Below are positions 18,796-39,046 of a stretch of 61,018 bases of DNA, one piece after another. The DNA is taken from IMG/VR virus record IMGVR_UViG_3300009506_000029, positions 1 through 61,018 of that record; one strand, written 5' to 3'. Each line of letters begins with the position of its first letter. Positions within the stretch are counted from its first letter, which is position 1. The translations under genes were made by a program, and so were the position numbers. Source of the stretch: a virus. The notes under the pieces were generated by a model, which was not told where the DNA came from, ran no database searches, and saw only the letters and a list, made by a program, of their open reading frames with translations.

Positions 18796-19086
18796 CTACG
18801 GTTGTTTTAGACCCAACGCCACCAGAACGACAGAGACGATCCCCAGCCCTCCCTCGATCACCCGCGACCAGGTTGTCCTACTCTCGACCGACCGCAGGCG
18901 TGTTTCGTGATCTGCGTGTCGGCCATCGGCCACCTCGCAATGCTCGCCGAACCGCTCGCCGAGGTGCTTGAACTCCTGGATAAAAAACTCGCGCTGGTGC
19001 TGCAGCTCGCTCCTCAACACCGCGACTGTGACATGATTGTTATCGCTTGCGTCTGGCACGTTGACCCCGATTGGATGACTACACAA
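18796..19086 (-). CDS. Coiled-coil membrane protein, XhlA/holin-accessory-like
   Basis: 96 residues from TTG at 19086, eight bases after GGGGGAG; no other start is available before the conserved part. The middle (VLRSELQHQREFFIQEFKHL) is a coiled-coil region, and the C-terminus (VIEGGLGIVSVVLVALGLKQ) is one hydrophobic span. This order and length match XhlA-like proteins that assist holins. The ribosome-binding site lies inside the stem of the hairpin at 19091-19107, so folding could affect translation. Function is inferred from architecture only. Confidence 0.58.
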   Translation of the reverse strand: MCSHPIGVNVPDASDNNHVTVAVLRSELQHQREFFIQEFKHLGERFGEHCEVADGRHADHETRLRSVESRTTWSRVIEGGLGIVSVVLVALGLKQP

Positions 19087-19110
19087 AAACCTGGCTCCCC
19101 CAGAGCCAGG
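19085..19110 (-). terminator. Hairpin with T-run between the first two late genes
   Basis: Read leftwards: CCTGGCTC, loop, GAGCCAGG, then TTTTTG. It looks like an intrinsic terminator, but it also contains the ribosome-binding site and TTG start of the next gene, so it may attenuate rather than stop late transcription. Confidence 0.6.
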
Positions 19111-19122
19111 CCCGATGATGAC

Positions 19123-19623
19123 TTATACCCGCGCGATCGCGACCTTGACGTTGGTCTGGACGCCGGCCAGCTGTCGCCACCGCTCGACCACGAACTGGAC
19201 GAACACGTCCTCCGGCACCAACGCCAGCGCCGTATCGGCAATAAAGGTCTGGTAGACCTGGCGCGCGGCCCCCTCGACTGCAGCCTGCGGAATCTCGCGC
19301 AAGCGCTTGTTGGTCTCTTCTTTCAACGCATCCAGCACAGACTCGACATAGTCGAGTACTTTTTCGAGCAGCTCGTTCTCCGTCTCCTCGCGGCGCTCGA
19401 GCCACATCCGGAACACCCACACAGCCACCGCCAGCACGACCGAGCAGCCCAACAGGATCAAAAACCACTTGGAGGTCGGATCCAGCCCTTGAGCGCGCAG
19501 GCCCGCCGAGGATGGGGCCAAAACCAACGCCCCGCCAAATCCGCTGAGAAGAGAGAGGATGAACGAGAGGACCTTGATCAAGATGTCCAGCCACTGTGGG
19601 CGAGAGTCAGAATAGGTGCGCAT
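19123..19623 (-). CDS. First late gene: two-span membrane protein
   Basis: 166 residues from ATG at 19623 (AGGAG six bases upstream); the frame is open to a TTG at 19647. Two hydrophobic segments, VLSFILSLLSGFGGALVLAP and WFLILLGCSVVLAVAVWVFR, are followed by an acidic helical domain rich in Glu and Leu (EETENELLEKVLDYVESVLD) ending in a compact C-terminal part. It is directly downstream of the strong minus-strand promoter at 19679-19708 and its operator. No family recognised. Holin or membrane-associated regulator are possibilities; neither is shown. Confidence 0.7.
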   Translation of the reverse strand: MRTYSDSRPQWLDILIKVLSFILSLLSGFGGALVLAPSSAGLRAQGLDPTSKWFLILLGCSVVLAVAVWVFRMWLERREETENELLEKVLDYVESVLDALKEETNKRLREIPQAAVEGAARQVYQTFIADTALALVPEDVFVQFVVERWRQLAGVQTNVKVAIARV

Positions 19624-23675: not shown

Positions 23676-23706
23676 TCTCTAATTTTTGGATCGCCTGTAC
23701 GTTATA
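23676..23706 (+). promoter_or_regulatory. Phage sigma-type promoter A
   Basis: TCTCTAATTT, 14 bases, CGTTATA. Lies 18 bases upstream of the next start codon and precedes GAGGGAGG. One of five copies with identical spacing; the preceding bases 23548-23675 contain no gene, only C- and T-rich tracts. Confidence 0.8.
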
Positions 23707-23724: not shown

Positions 23725-24084
23725 ATGAAACGAAACACTGGCCCCGCCCCGCTGCCGGGCGTCACGATCGAGGATGACGGCCTGTCCGTGCGCGGATTCG
23801 CAATGCTCGCGCTCAGCGCCGGAACATTGATATTGTCCATCGCGATCGCGGTGGCCATCTGGCGTATCAGCGCCGGCATCAAGTGGGCGCTGATCCTCCT
23901 GGCCAGCGGCAGTGCCGCCGAGATGGCCTTCGTCGGCCTGGGCATCTATCGCCGTCACGAGCTCGCCGGTCGCGCCCAGCTCGTTGAGGCCCAGGGCCGC
24001 GCAGACGAGGCCCGCGCGCGTGGGCAGGCCCAGGTCCTCGCCGCCCGTTTGTCGCACGCCTTGCCCGAACGAGGAGGACGATAA
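23725..24084 (+). CDS. Small membrane protein under sigma-type promoter A
   Basis: 119 residues from ATG at 23725 (GAGGGAGG upstream). Two hydrophobic segments (FAMLALSAGTLILSIAIAVA and WALILLASGSAAEMAFVGLG) separated by a short loop, then a long Ala/Arg/Glu helix (AQLVEAQGRADEARARGQAQ). No known family. It is the first of three overlapping genes (23725-24592) transcribed from promoter A, the only sigma-type promoter outside the radical SAM/AAA block. The charged helix might oligomerise. Function unknown. Confidence 0.65.
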   Translation: MKRNTGPAPLPGVTIEDDGLSVRGFAMLALSAGTLILSIAIAVAIWRISAGIKWALILLASGSAAEMAFVGLGIYRRHELAGRAQLVEAQGRADEARARGQAQVLAARLSHALPERGGR

Positions 24085-24404
24085 TGGCCCTGGATGTCTA
24101 TTTCAGGCGTGACATAGCCAACATCCTGCGGGCAACAGCCTGCGCCAGCGAGGGCGCCGCTGGCCTGGCGCTCGAGCTGCTGGGGGACGCCAGTCTGGTC
24201 GATGACGCCACGCTGAGTGGCGCCGGGGTCCCACAGGAACGGCTGCTGCAGGTCTACCGCCAGGGCGTGCGACATGCGCTGGTCTCGGTGGGACTCGCGT
24301 TCGGCCTCGAACCCGTAGGGATCGCCGCCCCACCCCGCCCGGGTGTCTCCCCTCCCCTGGCCGGCCTGCTCTGGGCCGAAGCCCCGCCGAAGGCCGAGCG
24401 ATGA
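24084..24404 (+). CDS. Hypothetical helical protein
   Basis: 106 residues, start overlapping the upstream stop (TAATG) and the downstream start (ATGA). The N-terminal 75 residues are predicted helical (FRRDIANILRATACASEGAA and ERLLQVYRQGVRHALVSVGL), followed by a Pro-rich C-terminus (APPRPGVSPPLAGLLW). No motif recognised. Conserved gene coupling within the promoter-A operon suggests co-production with the two flanking membrane proteins. Confidence 0.6.
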   Translation: MALDVYFRRDIANILRATACASEGAAGLALELLGDASLVDDATLSGAGVPQERLLQVYRQGVRHALVSVGLAFGLEPVGIAAPPRPGVSPPLAGLLWAEAPPKAER

Positions 24405-26929: not shown

Positions 26930-27162
26930 TGTACACCCTCACCCCCGCACAGGAACGTATCGTCGACGGCATCCGCACCTACTGGGACGAGAACCACATT
27001 CCGCCCACCGTGCGCGACGTGCGCGACCAGGTCGGCCTGGCCTCCACGGCCACCGTGCAATACCACCTCGACAACCTCGAGGACCTCGGCGTCATCGAGC
27101 GCACGCCCGGCGCGATGCGCTCGATCCGCCTTGCACAACCACATACAGGAGGTATCCAATGA
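26929..27162 (+). CDS. LexA-type winged-helix protein without peptidase domain
   Basis: 77 residues from ATG at 26929 (TGATG overlap with the initiator gene). TPAQERIVDGIRTYWDENHI then PPTVRDVRDQVGLASTATVQ and YHLDNLEDLGVIERTPGAMR match the LexA N-terminal DNA-binding domain almost motif for motif (L-T-x-x-Q-x-x-I..., P-P-T-x-R-E-I, S-x-x-x-V-x-x-H-L...L...G-x-I). The autocleavage domain is missing. It could compete with host LexA at SOS boxes or act as an unregulated repressor; a box lies at 31580. Confidence 0.82.
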   Translation: MYTLTPAQERIVDGIRTYWDENHIPPTVRDVRDQVGLASTATVQYHLDNLEDLGVIERTPGAMRSIRLAQPHTGGIQ

Positions 27163-27965
27163 CCACCCCCACCCGCTACGGCTGTATCTACCAGCCCGCC
27201 GGCCGTGCTGCTGAATACGCCCCCTGGGCGCTCAACCTCTATCGGGGCTGCGACCACGGTTGTGTTTACTGCTACGCGCCTTCGATTCTAAGGATGGATC
27301 GTAGCACGTTTCACGCCGCCGCCGCTCCGCGCAAGGACATCCTGCACAAGGTCGAGCAGGCTGCCCGCCTGGCCAGCGGCCACGTCGAGCGCGTCCTGCT
27401 TTCGTTCACCAGCGATCCCTACCAGCATCTGGACGCGCAGACCGGCATCACGCGCCAGGCGATCGAGATCCTCCACCGAAACGGCATCCAGGTCACCATC
27501 CTCACCAAGGGCGGCGCCCGCTCCATGCGCGACCTGGACCTGCTCGGCCCCGGCGACGCCTACGCCATCACCCTCGCCGTCCGTGAGGAGCGCCGCGCCG
27601 AATGGGAGCCCCACGCGGCCCCGATCGCCGAGCGCGTCCTCGTGCTCCAGGAGGCCTGCCGGCGCGGCCTCGAGACCTGGGTCTCGTTCGAGCCGGTCAT
27701 CTGGCCGCACGACACCTATGGTCTGTTTGTGCTCGTCCACGAGTGGATCACCCACTGCAAGGTTGGCCCGCTCAATTACGTCGGTCGACTGCCGGATCGC
27801 CTGAAAAGCCAGGTCCCTGCCCTCACCGACGCCGATTGGCGCACATTTGCCGAGATGTTCCAGCATTTCTGTCATCGCGTCAACGTGGAGTGCTACCTCA
27901 AGCAAGAGCTGCGGGACCGGATCGCGCAGGCTCCGCCGGACGATCCGAAAGTAATGAGATTATGA
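27159..27965 (+). CDS. Radical SAM protein, SPL/Rv2578c-like
   Basis: 268 residues. GCDHGCVYCYAPSILRM contains the CxxxCxxC cluster motif that binds [4Fe-4S]; LYRGCDHGCVYC is characteristic of the spore-photoproduct-lyase-like Rv2578c family. Further motifs: VLLSFTSDPYQHLDAQTGIT, RQAIEILHRNGIQVTILTKG and ETWVSFEPV, the TIM-barrel strands that bind SAM. Members are of unknown or DNA-repair-related function. It is coupled (ATGA) to the genes on both sides, behind the replication module. Substrate unknown. Confidence 0.85.
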   Translation: MTTPTRYGCIYQPAGRAAEYAPWALNLYRGCDHGCVYCYAPSILRMDRSTFHAAAAPRKDILHKVEQAARLASGHVERVLLSFTSDPYQHLDAQTGITRQAIEILHRNGIQVTILTKGGARSMRDLDLLGPGDAYAITLAVREERRAEWEPHAAPIAERVLVLQEACRRGLETWVSFEPVIWPHDTYGLFVLVHEWITHCKVGPLNYVGRLPDRLKSQVPALTDADWRTFAEMFQHFCHRVNVECYLKQELRDRIAQAPPDDPKVMRL

Positions 27966-30165: not shown

Positions 30166-30717
30166 ATGCTGACCACAGGCCAGCCGCTGACCGCCAATCA
30201 GCGCCAAAAGCTCACCGACTTGCAGCCGTATTTAAAGAGAATCGCGCACAACATCGTCGCCACGCACTACTCCGGCCAGGACCCCGACGACCTGCTCCAA
30301 ACGATGAACGCGGCCATCTGCGAACAAGCCGCCCGCGCCCCCGAGTTCCTGGACCAGACCCCCGGCTACATCACCCGCAAGGCCGCCTGGGCCGCCCGGG
30401 ACTACTGCCGGCACGAGCAGTACGGCCGCAACCTCGCGACCCTCAGCCTGGACGCTTCCGGTCCCGACGGCGACAGCTCGCTCGCCGAGGTCATCCCCGC
30501 CCCGCTCGCCGACCTCGATCTGCCGATCGACGTCGCCCGCGCCCTGGCCACGCTCAGCCAGAAGCGGCAACAGATCGTTGCGATGCTGGCCGCCGGCCTC
30601 CAGCGCAAAGAGATCGCCGCACACTTTGGGGTCAAATCGGCCACATTGGCGTGGGATTACCAGAAGATTCGGTCTGCACTACAGCCGGTCTACGCGGCCG
30701 TGCAGGCAGGGAGGTAG
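30166..30717 (+). CDS. Phage-encoded ECF-like sigma factor
   Basis: 183 residues from ATG at 30166, with AGGAGG seven bases upstream; the frame is open further back but has no ribosome-binding site. Region 2: LQPYLKRIAHNIVATHYSGQ, DPDDLLQTMNAAICEQ and ITRKAAWAARDYCRHEQYGR (the -10 binding helix). Region 4: LATLSQKRQQIVAMLAAGLQ, RKEIAAHFGVKSATLAWDYQ (helix-turn-helix for the -35). There is no region 1 or 3, as in ECF factors. The likely target is the promoter set TCTCTAA-N17-CGTTATA found at five sites. Sits opposite the repressor, so it would be turned on at induction. Confidence 0.82.
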   Translation: MLTTGQPLTANQRQKLTDLQPYLKRIAHNIVATHYSGQDPDDLLQTMNAAICEQAARAPEFLDQTPGYITRKAAWAARDYCRHEQYGRNLATLSLDASGPDGDSSLAEVIPAPLADLDLPIDVARALATLSQKRQQIVAMLAAGLQRKEIAAHFGVKSATLAWDYQKIRSALQPVYAAVQAGR

Positions 30718-31509: not shown

Positions 31510-31535
31510 ATTCAGATTCGGATCATAATCCAAAT
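31510..31535. promoter_or_regulatory. Dispersed 26-bp dyad, copy 6
   Basis: Arms ATTCAGATT and AATCCAAAT with core CGGATCAT; one of the best copies. It ends four bases before the -35 of the next promoter. Confidence 0.65.
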
Positions 31536-31597: not shown

Positions 31598-32302
31598 ATG
31601 GAAGACAACACGATGCTGATTACCAAGCTGGTCCTCCGGCCCGACAACCACGTCGATCTGTACGGGCGCGGGCACAAGTACAAAGACCTGACCCTCTTTG
31701 ACGCCACCGACCTGGCCGACGTCGGTATCGACGTGTCCGATCTGCAGCCCGGCGTCGAGACCCCGTGCCGGTTCATAGCCGAGTACGAGCTCTCCGACAA
31801 GCTGAACCAGTCGGGCAACCCGTACAAGGACGTGGTCGCGCTGCGGCCGGTGGGTGGGGGCAGCGTCCGGCAATCCGCGCCGGCGTCGGCCCCGGCCGGC
31901 GACGCGATCCTGGCCGAGCTGCGCGCGATCCGCGCCGAGCTGGCTCGGATGCACCGACTGATGGCCCAGGCGCTGGCCTCTGGCAGCTTGGACGACGCGC
32001 CCGGTACTGTCGACGTCGAGCCCACCGAACCGATCCCGGACACCGACGAGCCGCCGGACGAGGACGGCGCGGAAGTCGTGGAAGCCGCCGGCGCCACACC
32101 GCATCCGCTCAGCGATGCGATGGCCAAGCGGATGTTTATGTCGATGGCCGGCGATGCTGTCCGAGGCGGCGTGGACCACGCCCAAGTCAACACGCTGATG
32201 GCCGATGCGCGCACCACCACCGGCTGGCGCGACGCGCTCGAGGCGCTGCAGGCGCTGATCGAGCAGGCCGACGATCCCGAATCGGAGCTGGAGGCGGTAT
32301 GA
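31598..32302 (+). CDS. Putative OB-fold-like DNA-metabolism protein
   Basis: 234 residues. The first 85 residues (ITKLVLRPDNHVDLYGRGHK, ADVGIDVSDLQPGVETPCRF) look like a beta-barrel of OB type. A Pro/Ala linker, a helical segment (AELRAIRAELARMHRLMAQA), an acidic Pro/Asp/Glu stretch and a helical C-terminus follow. An acidic disordered region between folded parts is common in single-strand-binding or recombination mediators, but no signature is decisive. Controlled by the LexA-type box, which would fit a repair protein. Overlaps the next gene (ATGA). Confidence 0.55.
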   Translation: MEDNTMLITKLVLRPDNHVDLYGRGHKYKDLTLFDATDLADVGIDVSDLQPGVETPCRFIAEYELSDKLNQSGNPYKDVVALRPVGGGSVRQSAPASAPAGDAILAELRAIRAELARMHRLMAQALASGSLDDAPGTVDVEPTEPIPDTDEPPDEDGAEVVEAAGATPHPLSDAMAKRMFMSMAGDAVRGGVDHAQVNTLMADARTTTGWRDALEALQALIEQADDPESELEAV

Positions 32303-32943
32303 GTGAGAGGCCGATCCTGTTCAGCGGAAAGATGGTACGGGCCATTCTCGATGGACGAAAGACACAGACCCGGAGAGTGATCAAGCCGCAACACATCAAG
32401 CTCGACGGGGGCGGACATCCGTACATTGATATGGGCCATCCTGACGAGTGGGATGGTGCTGGTTTACGTCGCGACGTTCGCTGCCCCTACGGTCAACCAG
32501 GCGATCGCCTGTGGGTGCGCGAGACGTGGGCAACGCCCGGTAACTATGACGACATCAAACCGTCCGAGCTGTCCGCGTCTTGCTTCACGCACGCAGATCT
32601 AGCCTACCGCGCCACGGAGCCGTACGGAGATGCATACTACAGGTGGCGTCCATCCATCTTTATGCCGCGTTGGATCTCGCGCATCACACTGACCGTTACG
32701 AGCGTGCGCGTACAGCGAGTGCAGAATATCGTGCCTATGGACTGCTACGCCGAGGGCGCCTACACGGCGCAAGACATCACGAACGCCTATCATGGCCTGC
32801 GCTGCTGGGGCCAGCAGCTAGAGATAGAGTTTGCTTTGCAGTCATTCAAGCAACTATGGAACTCGATCAACGCGAAACGCGGATCTGGGTGGGATACTAA
32901 CCCCTGGGTGTGGGTAATCTCATTTGCGCGAGATACACTCTAG
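32299..32943 (+). CDS. ASCH-like protein, conserved in phages
   Basis: 214 residues from ATG at 32299 (ATGA overlap). ILFSGKMVRAILDGRKTQTR followed by RVIKP, CPYGQPGDRLWVRETWA and RPSIFMPRWISRITLTVTSV is the well-known phage ASCH-like pattern: the metal- or RNA-binding pocket K-T-Q-T-R-R, P-G-D-x-L-W-V-R-E-T and M-P-R-W-x-S-R. ASCH domains bind nucleic acid or act on modified nucleosides; in phages the role is unknown. It ends right at sigma-type promoter B. Confidence 0.8.
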   Translation: MSERPILFSGKMVRAILDGRKTQTRRVIKPQHIKLDGGGHPYIDMGHPDEWDGAGLRRDVRCPYGQPGDRLWVRETWATPGNYDDIKPSELSASCFTHADLAYRATEPYGDAYYRWRPSIFMPRWISRITLTVTSVRVQRVQNIVPMDCYAEGAYTAQDITNAYHGLRCWGQQLEIEFALQSFKQLWNSINAKRGSGWDTNPWVWVISFARDTL

Positions 32944-32974
32944 TCTCTAACTTTTGAGGCGCCCATTCGTTATA
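32944..32974 (+). promoter_or_regulatory. Phage sigma-type promoter B
   Basis: TCTCTAACTT, 14 bases, CGTTATA, 25 bases before the start of the NrdG-like gene. The following AAGGCAGACCAAACCAGGAG is nearly identical to the leader behind promoter E. Confidence 0.82.
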
Positions 32975-32999
32975 AGGCAGACCAAACCAGGAGACGCCA

Positions 33000-33653
33000 A
33001 TGGCAACACTACGAGTCGCACAGATCAACCCATCGTCCTACGTCGACGGCCCCGGCCGGCGCGCCGTGCTCTACCTGGCCGGCTGCCCGATCCAGTGCCC
33101 AGGCTGCCAGTCCCGGCACCTGTGGCCAGAGGACAACGAGCCCGGTCACGCCGGGCTCGCGATGGACGTCGACGAGGTGGCCGCCAGGCTGCTCGACACC
33201 GGCCTGCCCGTAACGATCTCAGGCGGAGAACCCCTCGCGCAGGCCGCCGCGGTCGCCGAGCTGCTGATCGAGCTCAGGATCCAGCAGCCCGAGGTGCACA
33301 TCGTCGTCTACACCGGGTTCGTGGTCGAGGACATTCTCGACACGCTGACCCAAGCGACGCCCGAGATTGGGGTGATCCTCCAATTCGCCAACGTCCTGGT
33401 CGACGGCCCGTTCCAGCCCGAGGACGACCACGATTGGGTACAGTGGCGCGGGTCCCGCAACCAGCGCCCGATCGATCTACGCGCTACCTGGGCGCAAGCC
33501 TGGCGATTTCTCGCCCTGCTGGACTGGGACACGCCGACTCTGACGGTCACCACAGACGGCGATCTGGTTGGCGCGGCCGGTACGATGGCCGAGCTGTTTG
33601 AGCCGGAAGCCGTGACCCCCGCGCGAATGTGCGGCCAGACCAAACCTGTGTAG
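33000..33653 (+). CDS. NrdG/PflA-like radical SAM activase
   Basis: 217 residues. CPIQCPGCQSRHLWPED provides the CxxxCxxC cluster motif, and PVTISGGEPLAQAAAVAELL the SAM-binding GGE motif, as in the NrdG class of glycyl-radical activases. Length fits NrdG (about 150-220). The usual partner, a glycyl-radical enzyme (NrdD), is absent in this window, so it might activate a host enzyme or a different partner. Transcribed from sigma-type promoter B, start preceded by CAGGAG. Confidence 0.82.
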   Translation: MATLRVAQINPSSYVDGPGRRAVLYLAGCPIQCPGCQSRHLWPEDNEPGHAGLAMDVDEVAARLLDTGLPVTISGGEPLAQAAAVAELLIELRIQQPEVHIVVYTGFVVEDILDTLTQATPEIGVILQFANVLVDGPFQPEDDHDWVQWRGSRNQRPIDLRATWAQAWRFLALLDWDTPTLTVTTDGDLVGAAGTMAELFEPEAVTPARMCGQTKPV

Positions 33654-33680
33654 TTGTTTCTCCTCCTGTGGATAGAGGAA

Positions 33681-33711
33681 GCCGGGGTGGGGTGGCGCCC
33701 ATCCCGGCCCC
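33681..33711 (+). terminator. Hairpin after the radical SAM gene
   Basis: GCCGGGGTGGG and CCCATCCCGGC pair with one G-U. There is no T-run, so it is a weak terminator or a processing structure. Confidence 0.45.
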
Positions 33712-33728
33712 TCGAATCGCCAAGTCGG

Positions 33729-33759
33729 TCTCTAATTTCCGGCGCCGTCGCGCGTTTTA
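33729..33759 (+). promoter_or_regulatory. Phage sigma-type promoter C
   Basis: TCTCTAATTT, 14 bases, CGTTTTA, the only copy with a changed -10. A 26-bp dyad starts two bases downstream, so this promoter could be blocked by the dyad-binding protein. Confidence 0.75.
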
Positions 33760-33760
33760 G

Positions 33761-33786
33761 ATTCAGATTCTGAACCTAATCTGAAT
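33761..33786. promoter_or_regulatory. Dispersed 26-bp dyad, copy 7 (perfect arms)
   Basis: ATTCAGATT and AATCTGAAT are perfectly complementary arms around CTGAACCT. It is the only copy without GATC in the core. It overlaps the expected start of transcription from promoter C. Confidence 0.68.
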
Positions 33787-33804
33787 CACACACAGGAGGA
33801 TATT

Positions 33805-35106
33805 GTGAGCGCCAGAGCCATACTAGAGGACTTGATGGATACGGACGCAGTCATAGAGGAAGCCGAGAACATCGTCAACCGGCGCCGGCGCGAGACCGCC
33901 GATCGCCTGGGCGTAGACGAAAGCAAGGTACACACGCACCGCCTCGAGCTGCGCAAGCTCCGCGAGGCTGGCCTGCTGATCGATCTCGACATCCACGGCA
34001 TCTCGATGTTCAGCGTCCGCACCACCTACGCTGAGCTGGGTATCAGCGCCGAGGACGTGCGCACCAAGCGGCTGCGCGCCGGCAGCAAAGACCTCTTCCC
34101 CGACTATAGCCGGAAACTCCGCTCCCTCGAGGCCCGCGCCCGCCAGAACCTGGCCAAGTACAGCCACGTCATCCCCGCGTTTGGCCAGTACCGCTGGCTG
34201 CCCTGGACAGCGTACCCCGAGTTTCGCGAGCAGCACGACCTGATCCTGGCCGAGCTGGCCGCGACCAAGGCGGAGCTGATCGGCAGGTACGATGCCCTCT
34301 ACGAGGAAAACCGCGCCTACTTTGAGCAGGTCGCCCTGCGCGCCTGGCGGGATCTGCGCGCCGGGTTTGCCGACCCGGACCACGCGATGATCGTCACCAC
34401 CGACCATACGGAGTTTGGCCCGGGCGAAGAAGGCCGCTTTGTCGAGTACGTGGTCCAGAAGGCGCTGGGCCGGATGCCTCTACCTGACGAGATCCGCGAC
34501 AGCGTGCGGATCGACTACAAAACCTCGATCCTCTACTCCGAGGCCGAGATCGCCGCCGACCAGGCCGCACTGGAGCAGGCCGAGGCCGAACGCGCACAAG
34601 CCCAACTCGCGCACGCCGAGGCTGCCCAGGCCGCCTTCGAGATCGAGCTTCAGGAGCGCGAGGCGGAGAGCCAGGCCCAGGCGCGGCTCTCTGCCTACCG
34701 CCGCGCCGAGCTCGATCATGCCCGGAGACAATTGGCTGAGATGGGCAGCCCGATCCAGGATGCCCTCGACGGCCTGCGCGCCAACCTCTACGACGCCGTC
34801 CACACGCTGCTGGCCGGCCTGCGCAAAAACACGACGTTCCGCGGCAAGGCCGGCGCCAAGGCCGCCGATCTCTATGCCTACTGGCAAAAGCTGAACGGCG
34901 GCCTGCTGCAAGACGTCGACCTCGAGCAGGCGCTGGCCAGCCTGGACCGGGAAATGCAATCGTACCAGGCAGCCGGTACGGAAGCCCGCCAGGTGCGGAT
35001 CGGCGACATCGAGGCTCAACTCACCGAGATCGCCACCCTGACCGCCGAGTCCGCCCGCCGCATTCGCCGCGAGTCCGACAGCCGCGCGTCGATGCTGGAG
35101 CTATGA
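33805..35106 (+). CDS. Coiled-coil protein (DUF3150-like?)
   Basis: 433 residues from GTG at 33805 (AGGAGG upstream). Residues 45-150 (LRKLREAGLLIDLDIHGISM, then FSVRTTYAELGISAEDVRTK) resemble the start of the DUF3150 family known from AAA/VWA gene neighbourhoods; the match is weak. Residues 230-320 form a long Ala/Glu/Gln coiled coil (QAALEQAEAERAQAQLAHAE). The C-terminal part is helical. It is encoded downstream of sigma-type promoter C and upstream of the AAA protein, so the two may act together. Confidence 0.62.
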   Translation: MSARAILEDLMDTDAVIEEAENIVNRRRRETADRLGVDESKVHTHRLELRKLREAGLLIDLDIHGISMFSVRTTYAELGISAEDVRTKRLRAGSKDLFPDYSRKLRSLEARARQNLAKYSHVIPAFGQYRWLPWTAYPEFREQHDLILAELAATKAELIGRYDALYEENRAYFEQVALRAWRDLRAGFADPDHAMIVTTDHTEFGPGEEGRFVEYVVQKALGRMPLPDEIRDSVRIDYKTSILYSEAEIAADQAALEQAEAERAQAQLAHAEAAQAAFEIELQEREAESQAQARLSAYRRAELDHARRQLAEMGSPIQDALDGLRANLYDAVHTLLAGLRKNTTFRGKAGAKAADLYAYWQKLNGGLLQDVDLEQALASLDREMQSYQAAGTEARQVRIGDIEAQLTEIATLTAESARRIRRESDSRASMLEL

Positions 35107-35107
35107 A

Positions 35108-35653
35108 ATGGACTCAGTTCAACTGGACTTTCTATCGGAATTGCACCTCCCGCCCGTCTGGGTGGCACCTATTCCCGGTGGATATGGACATTGGTGTTGT
35201 CCACACTGTAGAGATGCGTCTCGTGGTTTTGATGCATCTCTTTCATTCTCAGACAATCACCGCCGGATAGGTCACTGCCGCTATTGCAGCTATGAACACC
35301 AGTTCGATCAGCCATACGGCCAAACCCCGAATCATTATCCTGAGACACATCAGGAGCCTAGGAGTCTGACGCGTGTTCGCACTGGATTTCCGAAAGTCTG
35401 CCCGGCGGCTTACACCGACCTGGTTTGTGGGGCCAATTGCGAATCGTGCGCATGCTGCCAAGTCGATGCGCGCCTGCATTGGCGCTGTGACCACCCAGGC
35501 TATCAGCAAGCTCCTGGCATACACTGGTGCTTGGGATGCGGCATCGAGCTTGGCCCTTGGGCGGAGGCCCATCACTGGCCCTATTGTGGTGGGCCAACCA
35601 ACCGATGCTTGAGAGATGCTGATACCGTGGAGACCTCAGAAAGGACATGTTGA
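35108..35653 (+). CDS. Cysteine-rich zinc-binding protein
   Basis: 181 residues, two bases after the coiled-coil gene. It has about 18 cysteines in pairs: WCCPHCRDA, HCRYCSYEH, CGANCESCACCQ and WCLGCGIEL, with His between them, so two or three zinc ribbons are likely. Codon use and GC content look lower than in neighbouring genes, a hint of separate origin. The pattern resembles CHC2 or primase-type zinc ribbons (HWCCPHC...HCRYC), but no catalytic domain follows. Could guide DNA or RNA binding. Confidence 0.6.
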   Translation: MDSVQLDFLSELHLPPVWVAPIPGGYGHWCCPHCRDASRGFDASLSFSDNHRRIGHCRYCSYEHQFDQPYGQTPNHYPETHQEPRSLTRVRTGFPKVCPAAYTDLVCGANCESCACCQVDARLHWRCDHPGYQQAPGIHWCLGCGIELGPWAEAHHWPYCGGPTNRCLRDADTVETSERTC

Positions 35654-35845
35654 ATGGACGAAAGCGCCCGCAAGCGATTTGCTGACAAGTTCGGCCTGCC
35701 CTCAGGGCAGGTCCGAACGTTCGACGAGCTATCTGCTCACGAAAAGGAGGACGTGCGTCGCTGCTATTCCCTGCACAATGCACGCCTCTACGTCTACGCG
35801 GTCAAGGCCGCTGGCGGCCTGGTCGTGAAACGGTTCCGGTTGTAG
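35654..35845 (+). CDS. Small hypothetical protein
   Basis: 63 residues, starting directly after the zinc-rich gene. Sequence KRFADKFGLPSGQVRTFDEL is helical, ending in a basic strand LVVKRFRL. No family recognised. A conserved 18-base motif TTCCGAGAATGTGGATAC follows its stop (35849-35866). Confidence 0.55.
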   Translation: MDESARKRFADKFGLPSGQVRTFDELSAHEKEDVRRCYSLHNARLYVYAVKAAGGLVVKRFRL

Positions 35846-35887
35846 TCGTTCCGAGAATGTGGATACGCAGAAAGAAGCGGGGGTGAT

Positions 35888-36067
35888 ATGGTTGGGACGG
35901 TGGCGGCAGCACTGTTGGCCCTTTGGATCGTATTCAAGATGATCCAGATCGTGGTGGAATCTGTTGGGAACGGCTGTGCTGGCAGAATATGGGCTCTGCT
36001 TGCGATTGCATTTGGTAGTGCGCTTTTGATCGGGATAGCTTTCTTAGCGCAGGGCGTCAGGTGGTGA
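35888..36067 (+). CDS. Small two-span membrane protein (holin-like)
   Basis: 59 residues from ATG at 35888; GGGGGTGAT upstream could serve as ribosome-binding site. Two hydrophobic spans (VAAALLALWIVFKMIQIVVE and IWALLAIAFGSALLIGIAFL) are joined by a short polar loop GNGCAGR, the layout of small class II holins. It lies in the plus-strand accessory region, not next to a lysin, so the role is open. Confidence 0.5.
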   Translation: MVGTVAAALLALWIVFKMIQIVVESVGNGCAGRIWALLAIAFGSALLIGIAFLAQGVRW

Positions 36068-36145
36068 TCCGATTGTGACCGAGCCAGCCGAACGGCCCGC
36101 GTCCAAACGTTCCCGCACGCGCGCGGCAATGTTGGAGGTATAAAC

Positions 36146-36463
36146 ATGCTCATTTGGAGCGTCAAGCCCAAGCTCGATCGCACAGTGAAATATCACCTCG
36201 CCCACGGTCTGCGCAGAGCCAGCGTGCGCACCTGGCACCTGGCTCTGCTGCTGGATATGTTGGACCGGTCCCGGCTTGATGCGGCTGTGCACGGGATGCT
36301 TAGACGAGACCTGGCAACAAAGATCGCAAGAGACGCCAGCCGTCTTGAGCACATTCGCCGTACGGCTCTGTCCGCTATTGCCAGATCCGCCGACACGGCC
36401 GATCTGCTCGATGCTTTGCGCCAGATCGCGGCCATAGCCGACCTCGACACTGATAAGCATTAG
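36146..36463 (+). CDS. Hypothetical helical protein
   Basis: 105 residues; GGAGG lies eight bases before the start. The protein is basic and helical throughout (HLAHGLRRASVRTWHLALLL, ALSAIARSADTADLLDALRQ). No motif recognised. A 22-codon frame at 36075-36143 directly before it is too short to judge. Followed by sigma-type promoter D. Confidence 0.55.
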   Translation: MLIWSVKPKLDRTVKYHLAHGLRRASVRTWHLALLLDMLDRSRLDAAVHGMLRRDLATKIARDASRLEHIRRTALSAIARSADTADLLDALRQIAAIADLDTDKH

Positions 36464-36479
36464 GAACACAAGCTGAATG

Positions 36480-36510
36480 TCTCTAATTTCCTATCCGCCT
36501 ATGCGTTATA
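36480..36510 (+). promoter_or_regulatory. Phage sigma-type promoter D
   Basis: TCTCTAATTT, 14 bases, CGTTATA, 28 bases before the AAA gene start. Matches copies A and E at all key positions. Confidence 0.83.
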
Positions 36511-36538
36511 TGTGCAACTACCATAGGAGGGACTTACA

Positions 36539-38113
36539 ATGAAGGTGAACAAGTTGACTGCTATCCAACAGCTCGATGTGTTTATCCGCGCTCGATACCC
36601 GGTGATCTGGATCGTCACGCAGGAGGAGAGCCGCGTCGAGTCCGCCGTTCTCGGTCTGCTGGCAACCGGCAAGCACCACCACAAAGAGGCCCTTACCTGG
36701 ACCATCAGCCGGGGCGTGCGGCTGGCCAGCGCGCCCGGCGAGGAGTATGGGCCGCAGGACCCGATCAGCGCGCTCCAATGGTTCGGCACCTACGGGGCTA
36801 CCGAGGACCAGCCCGCCGGCACGCCGGCCGTGGCCATTTTCAAAGACCTCGATCCCTATTTTCAGGACCCGCGCGTGGTGCGGGCGCTGCGAGACGTGAT
36901 TACCGACATCACCAGCACCCAGCGTACACTGATCGTCATCGCGCCGGCGCTGCAGGTCCCCGAGTCCTGCAAACGCCAGGTTGCAGTGATCGATTGGTCG
37001 CTTCCCACCGTCGACGAGCTGGCCGGCATGCTGGACGACTTTATCACCGATCTGCCCACCGCGGTCGAGTGCAGCCTCAACGGCGAGCGCGAGCAGATTG
37101 CCAAGGCTCTCTGCGGCCTGACCTGGTTTCAGGCCCAGTCCGTGCTGGCCACCGCCGTGATTGCCACTGGACGACTGGACGGCGCCGCCGTTGACTTTAT
37201 CATCACAGAGAAGGCGCGGCTCGTCCGGGAGAGCGGCCTACTCGAGTTCTTTCAGCCCGAAGGTCTCCCCGAGATCGGCGGTCTGGACGTGCTCAAAGCG
37301 TACCTGGCCCGCCGGCGCCGGTCTTTCACAGATCAGGCGCGCGCGTACGGTGTTCCGACACCCAAGGGCCTGCTCCTTGTTGGCGTCCCCGGGTGCGGCA
37401 AGTCCCTGGCTTGCAAGTCGCTGGCCAAGCTCTGGCGGTTGCCTTTGATCCGCCTCGACGTCGGCGCGTTGATGGGTTCGCTTGTTGGTCAGTCCGAGGC
37501 GAACCTCCGCCAGGCGCTGCAGGTCGCGGAATCATCCAGCCCTTGCATCCTCTGGCTGGACGAGATCGAAAAAGGCCTCGCCGGCGTCAAGTCGAGCGGC
37601 AGCACGGACGGCGGCACGACGGCCAGGGTCTTTGGAACACTCCTGACCTGGCTGCAGGAAAAGACCGCGCCGGTCTACGTGGTAGCCACCAGCAACGACA
37701 TCAGCGCGCTGCCGGCTGAACTGCTGCGCGCGGGGCGGTTCGACGAGACATTTTTCGTCGACCTGCCGACGGCCGACGAGCGCCGCGAGATCTGGACCAT
37801 CCATATCGCAAAGGCCAATCGCGACCCCGCCGGCTTTGATCTGGAGGCGCTCGTGCAGGTCTCCGACGGTTACAACGGCGCGGAGATCGAAACCGCGGTG
37901 GGGGATGCGCTGATCAAGGGGTTTGACGAGGACCGCGAGATTGTAACAGATGATCTGGCCATTGCCATCACCGGGCGTGTACCGTTGACCAAGACGATGG
38001 AAGAGCAGATTGTCGCGCTGCGCAGATGGGCTGCTCACCGCGCCAAACCGGCCAGCCGGCCCCAGGTGGCCCAGGCTGAAGCCAAGAGCCGGGCCGCGAC
38101 GCTGGATCTGTAG
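36539..38113 (+). CDS. Ycf46-type AAA+ ATPase
   Basis: 524 residues with a unique N-terminal domain (residues 1-240: FIRARYPVIWIVTQEESRVE, where an inactive nucleotide-binding fold is typical of Ycf46) and a C-terminal AAA+ module. Walker A GVPGCGKS (about 282), Walker B CILWLDEIEK, sensor 1 VYVVATSNDIS and arginine-finger segment LLRAGRFDE are all present, so it should be active. Ycf46 proteins form a family of unknown function in cyanobacteria, plastids and phages. The next two genes match its known neighbours (DUF1257, DUF2997). Controlled by sigma-type promoter D. Confidence 0.9.
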   Translation: MKVNKLTAIQQLDVFIRARYPVIWIVTQEESRVESAVLGLLATGKHHHKEALTWTISRGVRLASAPGEEYGPQDPISALQWFGTYGATEDQPAGTPAVAIFKDLDPYFQDPRVVRALRDVITDITSTQRTLIVIAPALQVPESCKRQVAVIDWSLPTVDELAGMLDDFITDLPTAVECSLNGEREQIAKALCGLTWFQAQSVLATAVIATGRLDGAAVDFIITEKARLVRESGLLEFFQPEGLPEIGGLDVLKAYLARRRRSFTDQARAYGVPTPKGLLLVGVPGCGKSLACKSLAKLWRLPLIRLDVGALMGSLVGQSEANLRQALQVAESSSPCILWLDEIEKGLAGVKSSGSTDGGTTARVFGTLLTWLQEKTAPVYVVATSNDISALPAELLRAGRFDETFFVDLPTADERREIWTIHIAKANRDPAGFDLEALVQVSDGYNGAEIETAVGDALIKGFDEDREIVTDDLAIAITGRVPLTKTMEEQIVALRRWAAHRAKPASRPQVAQAEAKSRAATLDL

Positions 38114-38116
38114 AGA

Positions 38117-38147
38117 TCTCTAATTTTGGTCTGCCCCATACGTTATA
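38117..38147 (+). promoter_or_regulatory. Phage sigma-type promoter E within a perfect inverted repeat
   Basis: TCTCTAATTT, 14 bases, CGTTATA. The -10 sits in the loop of TTTGGTCTGCCCC/GGGGCAGACCAAA, a perfect 13-base inverted repeat (38125-38160). A bound protein or cruciform could control this promoter. Confidence 0.83.
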
Positions 38148-38173
38148 GGGGCAGACCAAACCAGGAGGATCAC

Positions 38174-38584
38174 GTGAGCAACTATCGCAAACTCAAAACA
38201 CAGTACACCAGCCGCGTGCACCTGCGCGCCGCGCTCCAGGCCACCGGCGTTATTTTTGAGGAAGTTCGACCGGGACAGACAGAGTCAACTCTCTATGGCT
38301 ACGAGAACGACGAACGCTCAGAGACCGCGACCTTTGTCGTTCGTCGCGATCAGATCGGGCGCCTGTCCAATGACATCGGCTGGCACTGGGACGGATCGCA
38401 GTTTGTCGAGATCGTCAGCGAGTGGGATCACCACGTGAGCAAGTGCTCAGAGATTCGCCAGACCGTGCGCCGCGAGTACGCCTACGCTGCGACCGTGTCG
38501 CAGGCGCAAGCCAAAGGCTACCGGACCGAGCGGATCGACCTTCCCACCGGCGTCATCCAGATCAAGGTCACAGGGAGGATCTAA
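38174..38584 (+). CDS. DUF1257 (Ycf35-like) protein
   Basis: 136 residues from GTG at 38174 with AGGAGG nearby. LKTQYTSRVHLRAALQATGV, RLSNDIGWHWDGSQFVEIVS and RREYAYAATVSQAQAKGY are the landmarks of the DUF1257/Ycf35 family (K-T-x-x-x..L..AL..LG, G-F-x-x-D-G-x-x-Y-x-L-V-x-D, R-Y-A-Y-x-x-x-x-x-x-A-x-x-x-G). In cellular genomes this family is encoded beside Ycf46-like AAA proteins and DUF2997, as here. Molecular role unknown. Ends overlapping the next gene (TAATG). Confidence 0.83.
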   Translation: MSNYRKLKTQYTSRVHLRAALQATGVIFEEVRPGQTESTLYGYENDERSETATFVVRRDQIGRLSNDIGWHWDGSQFVEIVSEWDHHVSKCSEIRQTVRREYAYAATVSQAQAKGYRTERIDLPTGVIQIKVTGRI

Positions 38585-38808
38585 TGCAAGAGTTCACACT
38601 GACCATCACGATTAGCGCAGATGGCGAGACCGTCGAGGGCGAGGTGTCTGGTATCAAGGGCAAGCGGTGCTCCGACGTCGCCGCGCTCTTGGACAAGGTG
38701 GGCGAGGAGACCGAGCACCGCCACACCGCGGACTATGACGCGCCCGAGCCGGTGCAGCTCCACATCGGATCGGCGGCCGGCACGTTGAGCCTCGGGCGGG
38801 GCGGGTAG
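38584..38808 (+). CDS. DUF2997-like small protein
   Basis: 74 residues. TLTITISADGETVEGEVSGI then KGKRCSDVAALLDKVGEETE matches the DUF2997 pattern: I-x-I-x-x-D-G-x-v-x-x-E-V-x-G-x-x-G-x-x-C-x-D-x-x-x-x-L-E. It is translated from a start overlapping the DUF1257 stop. With DUF1257 and Ycf46 it forms a conserved trio of unknown function. The C-terminal 25 residues are not typical. Confidence 0.8.
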   Translation: MQEFTLTITISADGETVEGEVSGIKGKRCSDVAALLDKVGEETEHRHTADYDAPEPVQLHIGSAAGTLSLGRGG

Positions 38809-38812
38809 GCCC

Positions 38813-39046
38813 ATGCCGCCCCGCCTTGCCGACCTCAAAGCCCAGGCCCAGGAGCACTACCGCGCGCCGCTGCACTGGATCGATGCGACGCCGACGCACG
38901 CCTGGGCCGACGTCGACCATCACGTCGTCAGTGTGATGGTCGACCCGCCCGAGGGGCAGCCGCATATCGTTATCATCCGCGGCCGGCACACCGAGCCGCT
39001 CAAGCCGACGCTGGAGACAGCGCGACAGCTCGCTTTCAAGTTGTAG
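38813..39046 (+). CDS. Small hypothetical protein behind the DUF trio
   Basis: 77 residues, five bases after the DUF2997 gene. It reads RLADLKAQAQEHYRAPLHWI, then HAWADVDHHVVSVMVDPPEG and IIRGRHTEPLKPTLETARQL, an alpha/beta pattern with several His. Possibly a fourth member of the DUF trio unit because of zero-gap spacing; no family known to me. Confidence 0.55.
   Translation: MPPRLADLKAQAQEHYRAPLHWIDATPTHAWADVDHHVVSVMVDPPEGQPHIVIIRGRHTEPLKPTLETARQLAFKL

Follow-up and report, generated by a model that had tools for sequence, protein, structure and literature searches.

A phage gene module with a Ycf46-type AAA+ ATPase, DUF1257, DUF2997 and a radical-SAM protein behind private promoters

Ycf46, Ycf35 (DUF1257) and DUF2997 have no defined biochemical function, although cyanobacteria have all three and red-algal plastids have Ycf46 and Ycf35. 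Why does a phage carry these genes together behind promoters of its own, and what might their products do? This question arises from the IMG/VR virus record IMGVR_UViG_3300009506_000029. The whole record (61,018 bases, 59 called genes) was analysed and is called the window. An original prediction had read positions 32944 to 39046 as a functional system that encodes an NrdG-like radical S-adenosylmethionine (SAM) protein, a coiled-coil protein, a Ycf46-type AAA ATPase, DUF1257 and DUF2997. Our analysis strongly supports a functional system: the genes are conserved together in phages, bacteria and archaea, and their promoters have diverged in concert in each phage. We have hardly any doubt that the module is a real, co-inherited system. 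Its central features in the window are as follows.

30166..30717, + strand: sigma-factor-like protein, 183 aa, with a region-4-like helix-turn-helix; candidate reader of the private promoters
32944..32974, + strand: private promoter of the radical-SAM gene, TCTCTAACTT-N-CGTTATA
33000..33653, + strand: radical-SAM protein, 217 aa, NrdG-like, not NrdG itself; CPIQCPGC as CX3CX2C
33729..33759, + strand: private promoter of the DUF3150-like gene, TCTCTAATTT-N-GCGTTTTA
33760..33787, + strand: 10-bp inverted repeat GATTCAGATT-N8-AATCTGAATC, operator-like as read from the sequence
33805..35106, + strand: coiled-coil protein, 433 aa, remote DUF3150 member; probable AAA adaptor or scaffold
36480..36510, + strand: private promoter of the AAA gene
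36539..38113, + strand: Ycf46-type AAA+ ATPase (Pfam AAA, 2.1e-29), predicted to have a degenerate N-terminal and an active-type C-terminal AAA domain
38117..38147, + strand: private promoter of the DUF1257-DUF2997 pair
38125..38160, + strand: inverted repeat TTTGGTCTGCCCC-N10-GGGGCAGACCAAA with perfectly matching 13-bp arms and the -10 box at its centre, operator-like
38174..38584, + strand: DUF1257 (Ycf35 family) protein, 136 aa (PF06868, 5.7e-8)
38584..38808, + strand: DUF2997 protein, 74 aa (PF11211, 3e-7)

Gene order and private promoters

The families named in the window were confirmed with Pfam hidden Markov models (HMMs): AAA, DUF1257 (33.4 bits against a cut-off of 22.2), DUF2997 (30.6 bits against 24.1) and, for the radical-SAM protein, Fer4_12. 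Together with the full-length similarity of the AAA protein described below, these scores bear out the assignments of the original prediction. Because the neighbourhood is also conserved in related phages, the finding survived the check that had been proposed for the genes at 38174 and 38584. The AAA, DUF1257 and DUF2997 genes had been described as adjacent and partly overlapping. They are adjacent, and the DUF1257 and DUF2997 genes overlap by 1 nt; the AAA and DUF1257 genes do not overlap, since a 60 bp gap, occupied by a promoter, lies between them. A further correction concerns the last open reading frame (ORF; 38813-39046, 77 aa), for which no relative was found in a sister phage (G001).

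The motif TCTCTAA-N-GTTATA is present in four exact copies (23676, 32944, 36480 and 38117), where 0.00 were expected from 100 shuffles. A fifth copy, at 33729, has an altered -10 element, and the promoter family can be written as TCTCTAATTT..CGTTATA. As had been claimed, four of the five copies sit at the module, before the radical-SAM, coiled-coil, AAA and DUF1257 genes; the distances from box start to start codon are 56, 76, 59 and 57 nt, respectively. The sister phage has five copies of TCCCTAATTT-N13-TGTTATA, one of which starts with CCCC. Four of these precede the radical-SAM (at a distance of 499 nt, which includes a small additional ORF), DUF3150-like, AAA and DUF1257 genes, and the fifth stands immediately before the homologue of window gene 24084-24404. 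Between the window and the sister phage, T-to-C and C-to-T promoter changes are present in all copies together. In a third phage (G011), about 10 copies of another family, TTGCACAAA-N12-TTCGTTCTAT, were found, including copies upstream of the DUF3150-like, AAA and DUF1257 genes. Moreover, a contig of an Anaerolineae metagenome-assembled genome (MAG; L060) has four copies of TTCTAAAAAC..CTATGG, three of which lie at the module; another repeated upstream motif was seen in phage L115. Thus, the promoters are uniform within a phage and different between phages, which fits a cognate factor that has co-evolved or drifted with its sites.

The candidate for this factor is the sigma-like protein at 30166-30717, which matches a PHROG RNA polymerase sigma factor (3.4e-7). 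It is conserved at 73% in the sister phage and has a remote homologue in G011 at 19000-19530 (HMM 5e-15). The CGTT-containing -10 of the window promoters resembles -10 elements of the extracytoplasmic function (ECF) type. The 13-bp repeat at 38125-38160 flanks the -10 of the DUF1257-DUF2997 promoter and is present in the sister phage as a 14-bp version with compensatory changes; this inverted repeat is probably an operator. The 10-bp repeat at 33760-33787 lies just past the -10 of the DUF3150-like gene and is partly conserved in the sister phage. A GATTCAGATTCGGATC-like sequence, related to the latter repeat, is located near 31510.

Co-inheritance in phages and cells

The sister phage keeps the same gene set, and its AAA protein is 84% identical to that of the window. 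G011 is otherwise unrelated: of the 59 called window genes, it has counterparts (E 1e-4) of only 8, namely the sigma-like, radical-SAM, DUF3150-like, AAA, DUF1257 and DUF2997 genes and two others, including a tail tape-measure-like gene. Among the viral loci, co-occurrence was supported at P = 0.005, shared ancestry being ignored.

Single-sequence scans with the window DUF1257 protein found no relatives. Because this protein is too diverged for such scans, the AAA was taken as the anchor, and 80 loci in cellular genomes were located through it. In loci found in this way, DUF1257 and DUF2997 adjoin the AAA, and a radical-SAM gene was present in 12 of the 25 loci with DUF2997, compared with 1 of the 55 without it. 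To avoid AAA bias, DUF2997 alone was used as the anchor for a second sample of 198 Spirochaetota and 301 Chloroflexota genomes (phylum labels were taken from the titles of records L074 and L101). DUF2997 was present in 11 genomes from each phylum. An NrdG-like radical-SAM gene was located within 5 kb in 18 of the 20 DUF2997-anchored loci (Fisher 3.7e-14, again with shared ancestry ignored); one of the two exceptions begins at a contig edge and the other adjoins a contractile-tail spike gene. Thus, the linkage is general in two phyla, and the radical-SAM protein is a core partner. For example, three Chloroflexota loci (L266, L269 and L271) hold the complete set of DUF3150-like, AAA, DUF1257, DUF2997 and radical-SAM genes. 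In L266, integrases lie between the DUF2997 and radical-SAM genes, which suggests that some copies of the module may be mobile.

Contigs of Candidatus Hodarchaeota (Asgard) MAGs (L058, L064) have the order DUF1257-DUF2997-AAA. An acidobacterial MAG locus (L109:659-8479) combines DUF2997 with two AAA genes and with several members of a single family, among them an FGE-sulfatase-like gene (PF03781, 4e-50).

Cellular copies were found in three settings. In the first, the module lies with genes for GrpE, Hsp70 and HEAT/WD40 proteins (L088, L089, L099, L101, L263-L265). The second setting is found in spirochaetes (L044, L074, L253, L254), in operons for a contractile tail that include sheath, spike and YQBQ genes; the radical-SAM, Ycf46-type AAA and DUF2997 genes lie there between or near the YQBQ-like and spike genes. 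These operons possibly encode an unusual contractile injection system. In the third setting, cyanobacteria, a small zinc-ribbon-like gene, AAA and DUF1257 are found together, and AAA and DUF1257 are adjacent in 34 of 34 loci. DUF2997-ycf35-fed7 is reported as a conserved cyanobacterial cluster; its [4Fe-4S] ferredoxin, Fed7, has a DnaJ-like protein as binding partner and gives protection from oxidative, metal and iron stress (PMC4284462). According to work cited in PMC7496141, loss of Ycf46 lowers EcaB carbonic anhydrase activity, and the operon of Ycf46 is stress-responsive. Chaperone and [4Fe-4S] partners therefore recur in unrelated lineages, as Hsp70 and GrpE beside the module and as Fed7, with its DnaJ-like binding, in cyanobacteria. 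The cyanobacterial and plastid genes resemble the window in that the AAA adjoins DUF1257 and in that DUF2997-ycf35 is grouped with a [4Fe-4S] protein. However, the cyanobacterial loci have the small zinc-ribbon-like gene and no radical-SAM gene, whereas the phage has a radical-SAM gene, a DUF3150-like gene and private promoters.

Predicted properties of the module proteins

Along almost its entire length, the window AAA protein shows 40-46% identity to Ycf46-type proteins from cells (cyanobacteria, Chloroflexi, planctomycetes, spirochaetes and archaea); it is nearer to these than to more distant phage relatives. With the cyanobacterial proteins, the identity is 41-44% over about residues 10-506, the degenerate N-terminal domain included. 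In 170 proteins, G282, G285, G287, K288, D341, E342, T384, N386 and R400 are conserved in 100% and R397 in 99%. These residues cover the Walker A, Walker B, sensor 1 and arginine positions of the C-terminal domain, so that the motor motifs are intact. The N-terminal half aligns to the C-terminal half (hhalign E 9.4e-6, probability 83%) and does not have these motifs. It thus appears that, of the two ATPase domains, the first is inactive and the second active. Among solved structures, the best relatives of the C-terminal half are of the Cdc48/p97 (VCP-like) type (best E 2.6e-91, profile A1); these differ from the window AAA, which has a degenerate first domain and an unrelated partner set. Mycobacterium phages of the Corndogvirus group also have a full-length Ycf46-type AAA (NC_023712.1 60462-62162, L012), and DUF1257 and DUF2997 were not detected there.

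PF11348 (DUF3150) gave no direct match to the coiled-coil protein of the window (G000). When its nine-member family was compared with seven DUF3150 proteins, hhalign gave a probability of 98.9% (E 1.3e-17), compared with 0.2-0.3% for unrelated controls. On this profile evidence, the coiled-coil protein is a remote DUF3150 member. We correct its label accordingly and call it DUF3150-like, without filing it as a Pfam member. In other large phages, DUF3150 proteins adjoin the AAA gene. Firecracker gp99, which adjoins the AAA gene in Mycobacterium phages, was rejected as a DUF3150 protein (hhalign probability 0.1%).

The DUF2997 proteins are 65-75 aa long. Gly14 and Cys29 are invariant in an alignment of 45 sequences; in a wider set, two divergent proteins do not have the Cys. 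A glycyl-radical-like reading of the GxKGxxC motif was dropped because the first Gly varies (for example, in L015). Open frames of 747, 201 and 179 aa that hold DUF2997 are artefacts of overlapping frames and not fusions.

Is the radical-SAM protein an NrdG? The protein at 33000-33653 matches Fer4_12 (7.7e-26) and, under the cut-off, Radical_SAM (7.9e-6); its CX3CX2C motif is intact and a [4Fe-4S]-type cluster is predicted. The resemblance to NrdG noted in the original prediction is genuine, since NrdG is also a short radical-SAM protein with CX3CX2C and the NrdG equivalog is the best HMM match (99.5 bits). Furthermore, the PHROG label is anaerobic ribonucleotide reductase (RNR) small subunit, and many phages carry nrdD-nrdG. 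The identity, however, did not hold. The score is below the cut-off of 126.1. In a tree of 32 proteins, the seven true NrdGs form a clade (100/98) from which all 19 module radical-SAM proteins are excluded. NrdD was found in none of the seven phage records with a module radical-SAM gene, that is, the window and six others; it was also not found in five cellular genomes with the module, several of which are MAGs and possibly incomplete. Finally, three genomes have a true NrdG above the cut-off and, elsewhere, a separate module radical-SAM protein with a lower score; in two of them, NrdG directly adjoins NrdD. We therefore rejected an NrdG or RNR identity, and these comparisons indicate that the window protein is not NrdG. 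A second, unrelated radical-SAM protein is encoded at 27159-27965 (PF04055, 6e-10) and is conserved at 65% in the sister phage.

The remaining features are listed here.

23676..23706, + strand: fifth private promoter, which precedes 23725-24404
35108..35653, + strand: Cys-rich (zinc-ribbon-like) protein, 181 aa; 65% in the sister phage; no Pfam family
35654..35845, + strand: 63-aa protein; 81% in the sister phage

In addition, a 213-aa protein encoded at 32302-32943 begins with MSERPILFSGKMVRAILDGRKTQTRR; it is ASCH-like by eye and has no Pfam match.

Possible functions of the module

The original prediction suggested that an AAA protein perhaps drives a remodelling complex that also performs redox or radical chemistry. 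The parts for such a complex are present, namely the intact AAA motor and a [4Fe-4S]-type radical-SAM protein as core partner; the client and the radical chemistry are our inference. Our preferred reading, to which we give a rough probability of 0.45, is an AAA+ remodelling chaperone under sigma control. The sigma-like factor (30166) would turn on a dedicated regulon by reading the private promoters, and the products would assemble into one complex. The motor would be the Ycf46-type AAA+ protein, with its inactive first and active second ATPase domain, and the DUF3150-like coiled-coil protein may serve it as adaptor or scaffold. The client-recognition pair would be DUF1257 and DUF2997, which share a transcript. 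The module-specific radical-SAM protein would then modify or activate a protein that is handled by the motor, most likely DUF2997 near the invariant Cys, or a client that DUF2997 presents. Cyanobacteria seem to use the [4Fe-4S] ferredoxin Fed7 for the redox slot.

Several observations weigh against the remodelling chaperone. The sigma-like protein scores below the Pfam cut-off for Sigma70_r4_2 (2.1e-4; 21.3 against 25.7 bits), and the 32-protein tree does not group the radical-SAM proteins of the module into a single clade. No partner was found in 55 of the 87 viral AAA loci, and the cyanobacterial loci are without radical-SAM; in other words, neither is needed for every Ycf46-type AAA. Structures were predicted from alignments from which the rows of the phage collection had been left out. 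The AlphaFold2 model of DUF1257 (pLDDT, the predicted local distance difference test, 95.3; pTM, the predicted template-modelling score, 0.88) matches one viral predicted structure (E 2.8e-6) and has no PDB match at E < 0.001; several weak PDB matches are to Bcs1, an AAA protein (best E 0.077), and serve only as a lead. For DUF2997, no confident structure was obtained and the tail is of low confidence. The folds of the two proteins thus lend no support to adaptor and substrate roles. The poor prediction of DUF2997 is consistent with a protein that may fold upon binding.

Alternatively, the AAA and its partners may load, fold or proof-read a tail or internal virion protein, and the radical-SAM protein may mature a structural protein. 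The spirochaete modules, which lie within contractile-tail operons between YQBQ-like and spike genes, argue for such an assembly chaperone. A precedent is Pvc15 of an extracellular contractile injection system (eCIS). This tail-loading ATPase has two AAA domains in tandem, and D2 alone is active (PMC11495950); it thus has an active second domain like the window AAA, for which a remodelling or loading role would likewise be assumed. The abstract and section list of that paper name no DUF1257, DUF2997 or radical-SAM partners. The likeness of Pvc15/Afp15 to the window AAA is one of domain architecture. Sheath, tube and baseplate genes accompany the spirochaete relatives L044 and L074, whereas the module block of the window has none of these. 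The window module is distant from the tail genes, which lie on the opposite strand, tail genes are absent from the surroundings of most cellular copies, and the cyanobacterial Ycf46/Ycf35 loci have no tail context. We consider this role rather unlikely.

Counter-defence or host takeover, in which the AAA complex would disassemble or inactivate a host complex as a private phage regulon, is improbable. The sigma-like regulon would suit it, and the AAA core resembles IetA of IetAS (PADLOC 8e-28). However, the match is limited to the AAA core, there is no IetS-like protease partner among the scanned module genes, no partner has a convincing match to a defence family and PADLOC assigned no defence system. 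Moreover, the module has a wide distribution in cells, in settings with no obvious link to defence. Nothing that we found points specifically to the takeover role that had been suggested.

A similarly low probability applies to DUF2997 as the product of the system, that is, a small modified peptide or carrier, cofactor-like or of the ribosomally synthesized and post-translationally modified peptide (RiPP) type, which is matured by the radical-SAM protein while AAA and DUF1257 only process or deliver it. The tight linkage of the two genes, the small size of DUF2997, its invariant Cys and Gly and its low-confidence tail are in line with this idea. In the 217-aa radical-SAM protein, however, no extra peptide-binding or SPASM-type domain was detected, the conserved set has no exporter or protease, and several lineages have DUF2997 without radical-SAM nearby. 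Lastly, in view of the NrdG comparisons and the linkage to DUF2997, it is very improbable that the radical-SAM gene is an auxiliary NrdG activase gene of nucleotide metabolism beside an unrelated AAA cluster.

Beyond the phages, the remodelling chaperone could be one form of a so far undescribed cross-domain AAA+ unfoldase of bacteria, archaea and viruses, with radical-SAM chemistry on DUF2997 as a small carrier or client delivered by DUF1257. The cyanobacterial and plastid Ycf46/Ycf35 would then be a ferredoxin-linked branch, and phages would run the module as a private sigma regulon. This wider proposal is tentative, and we hold it to be less likely than the chaperone itself.

In the searched literature, which covered subscription journals only to a small extent, no paper describes the module, and none has Ycf46 together with radical SAM; DUF3150 appears in none, and DUF1257 or DUF2997 in three. 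The cyanobacterial gene group is already known as synteny; should that group not be regarded as a described system, the module would be categorically new. New here are the diverged private promoters in the sister and third phages, the remote DUF3150 membership, the radical-SAM partner distinct from NrdG and the cellular settings. In the window, Ycf46, Ycf35 and DUF2997 are linked with a radical-SAM enzyme specific to the module and with a putative adaptor of the DUF3150-like type. The phages are a clean case of a regulon that is retained while the sigma-like factor and the promoter sequences drift together. Because phages offer compact versions of the module with defined promoters, the old question of what these proteins do becomes directly testable.

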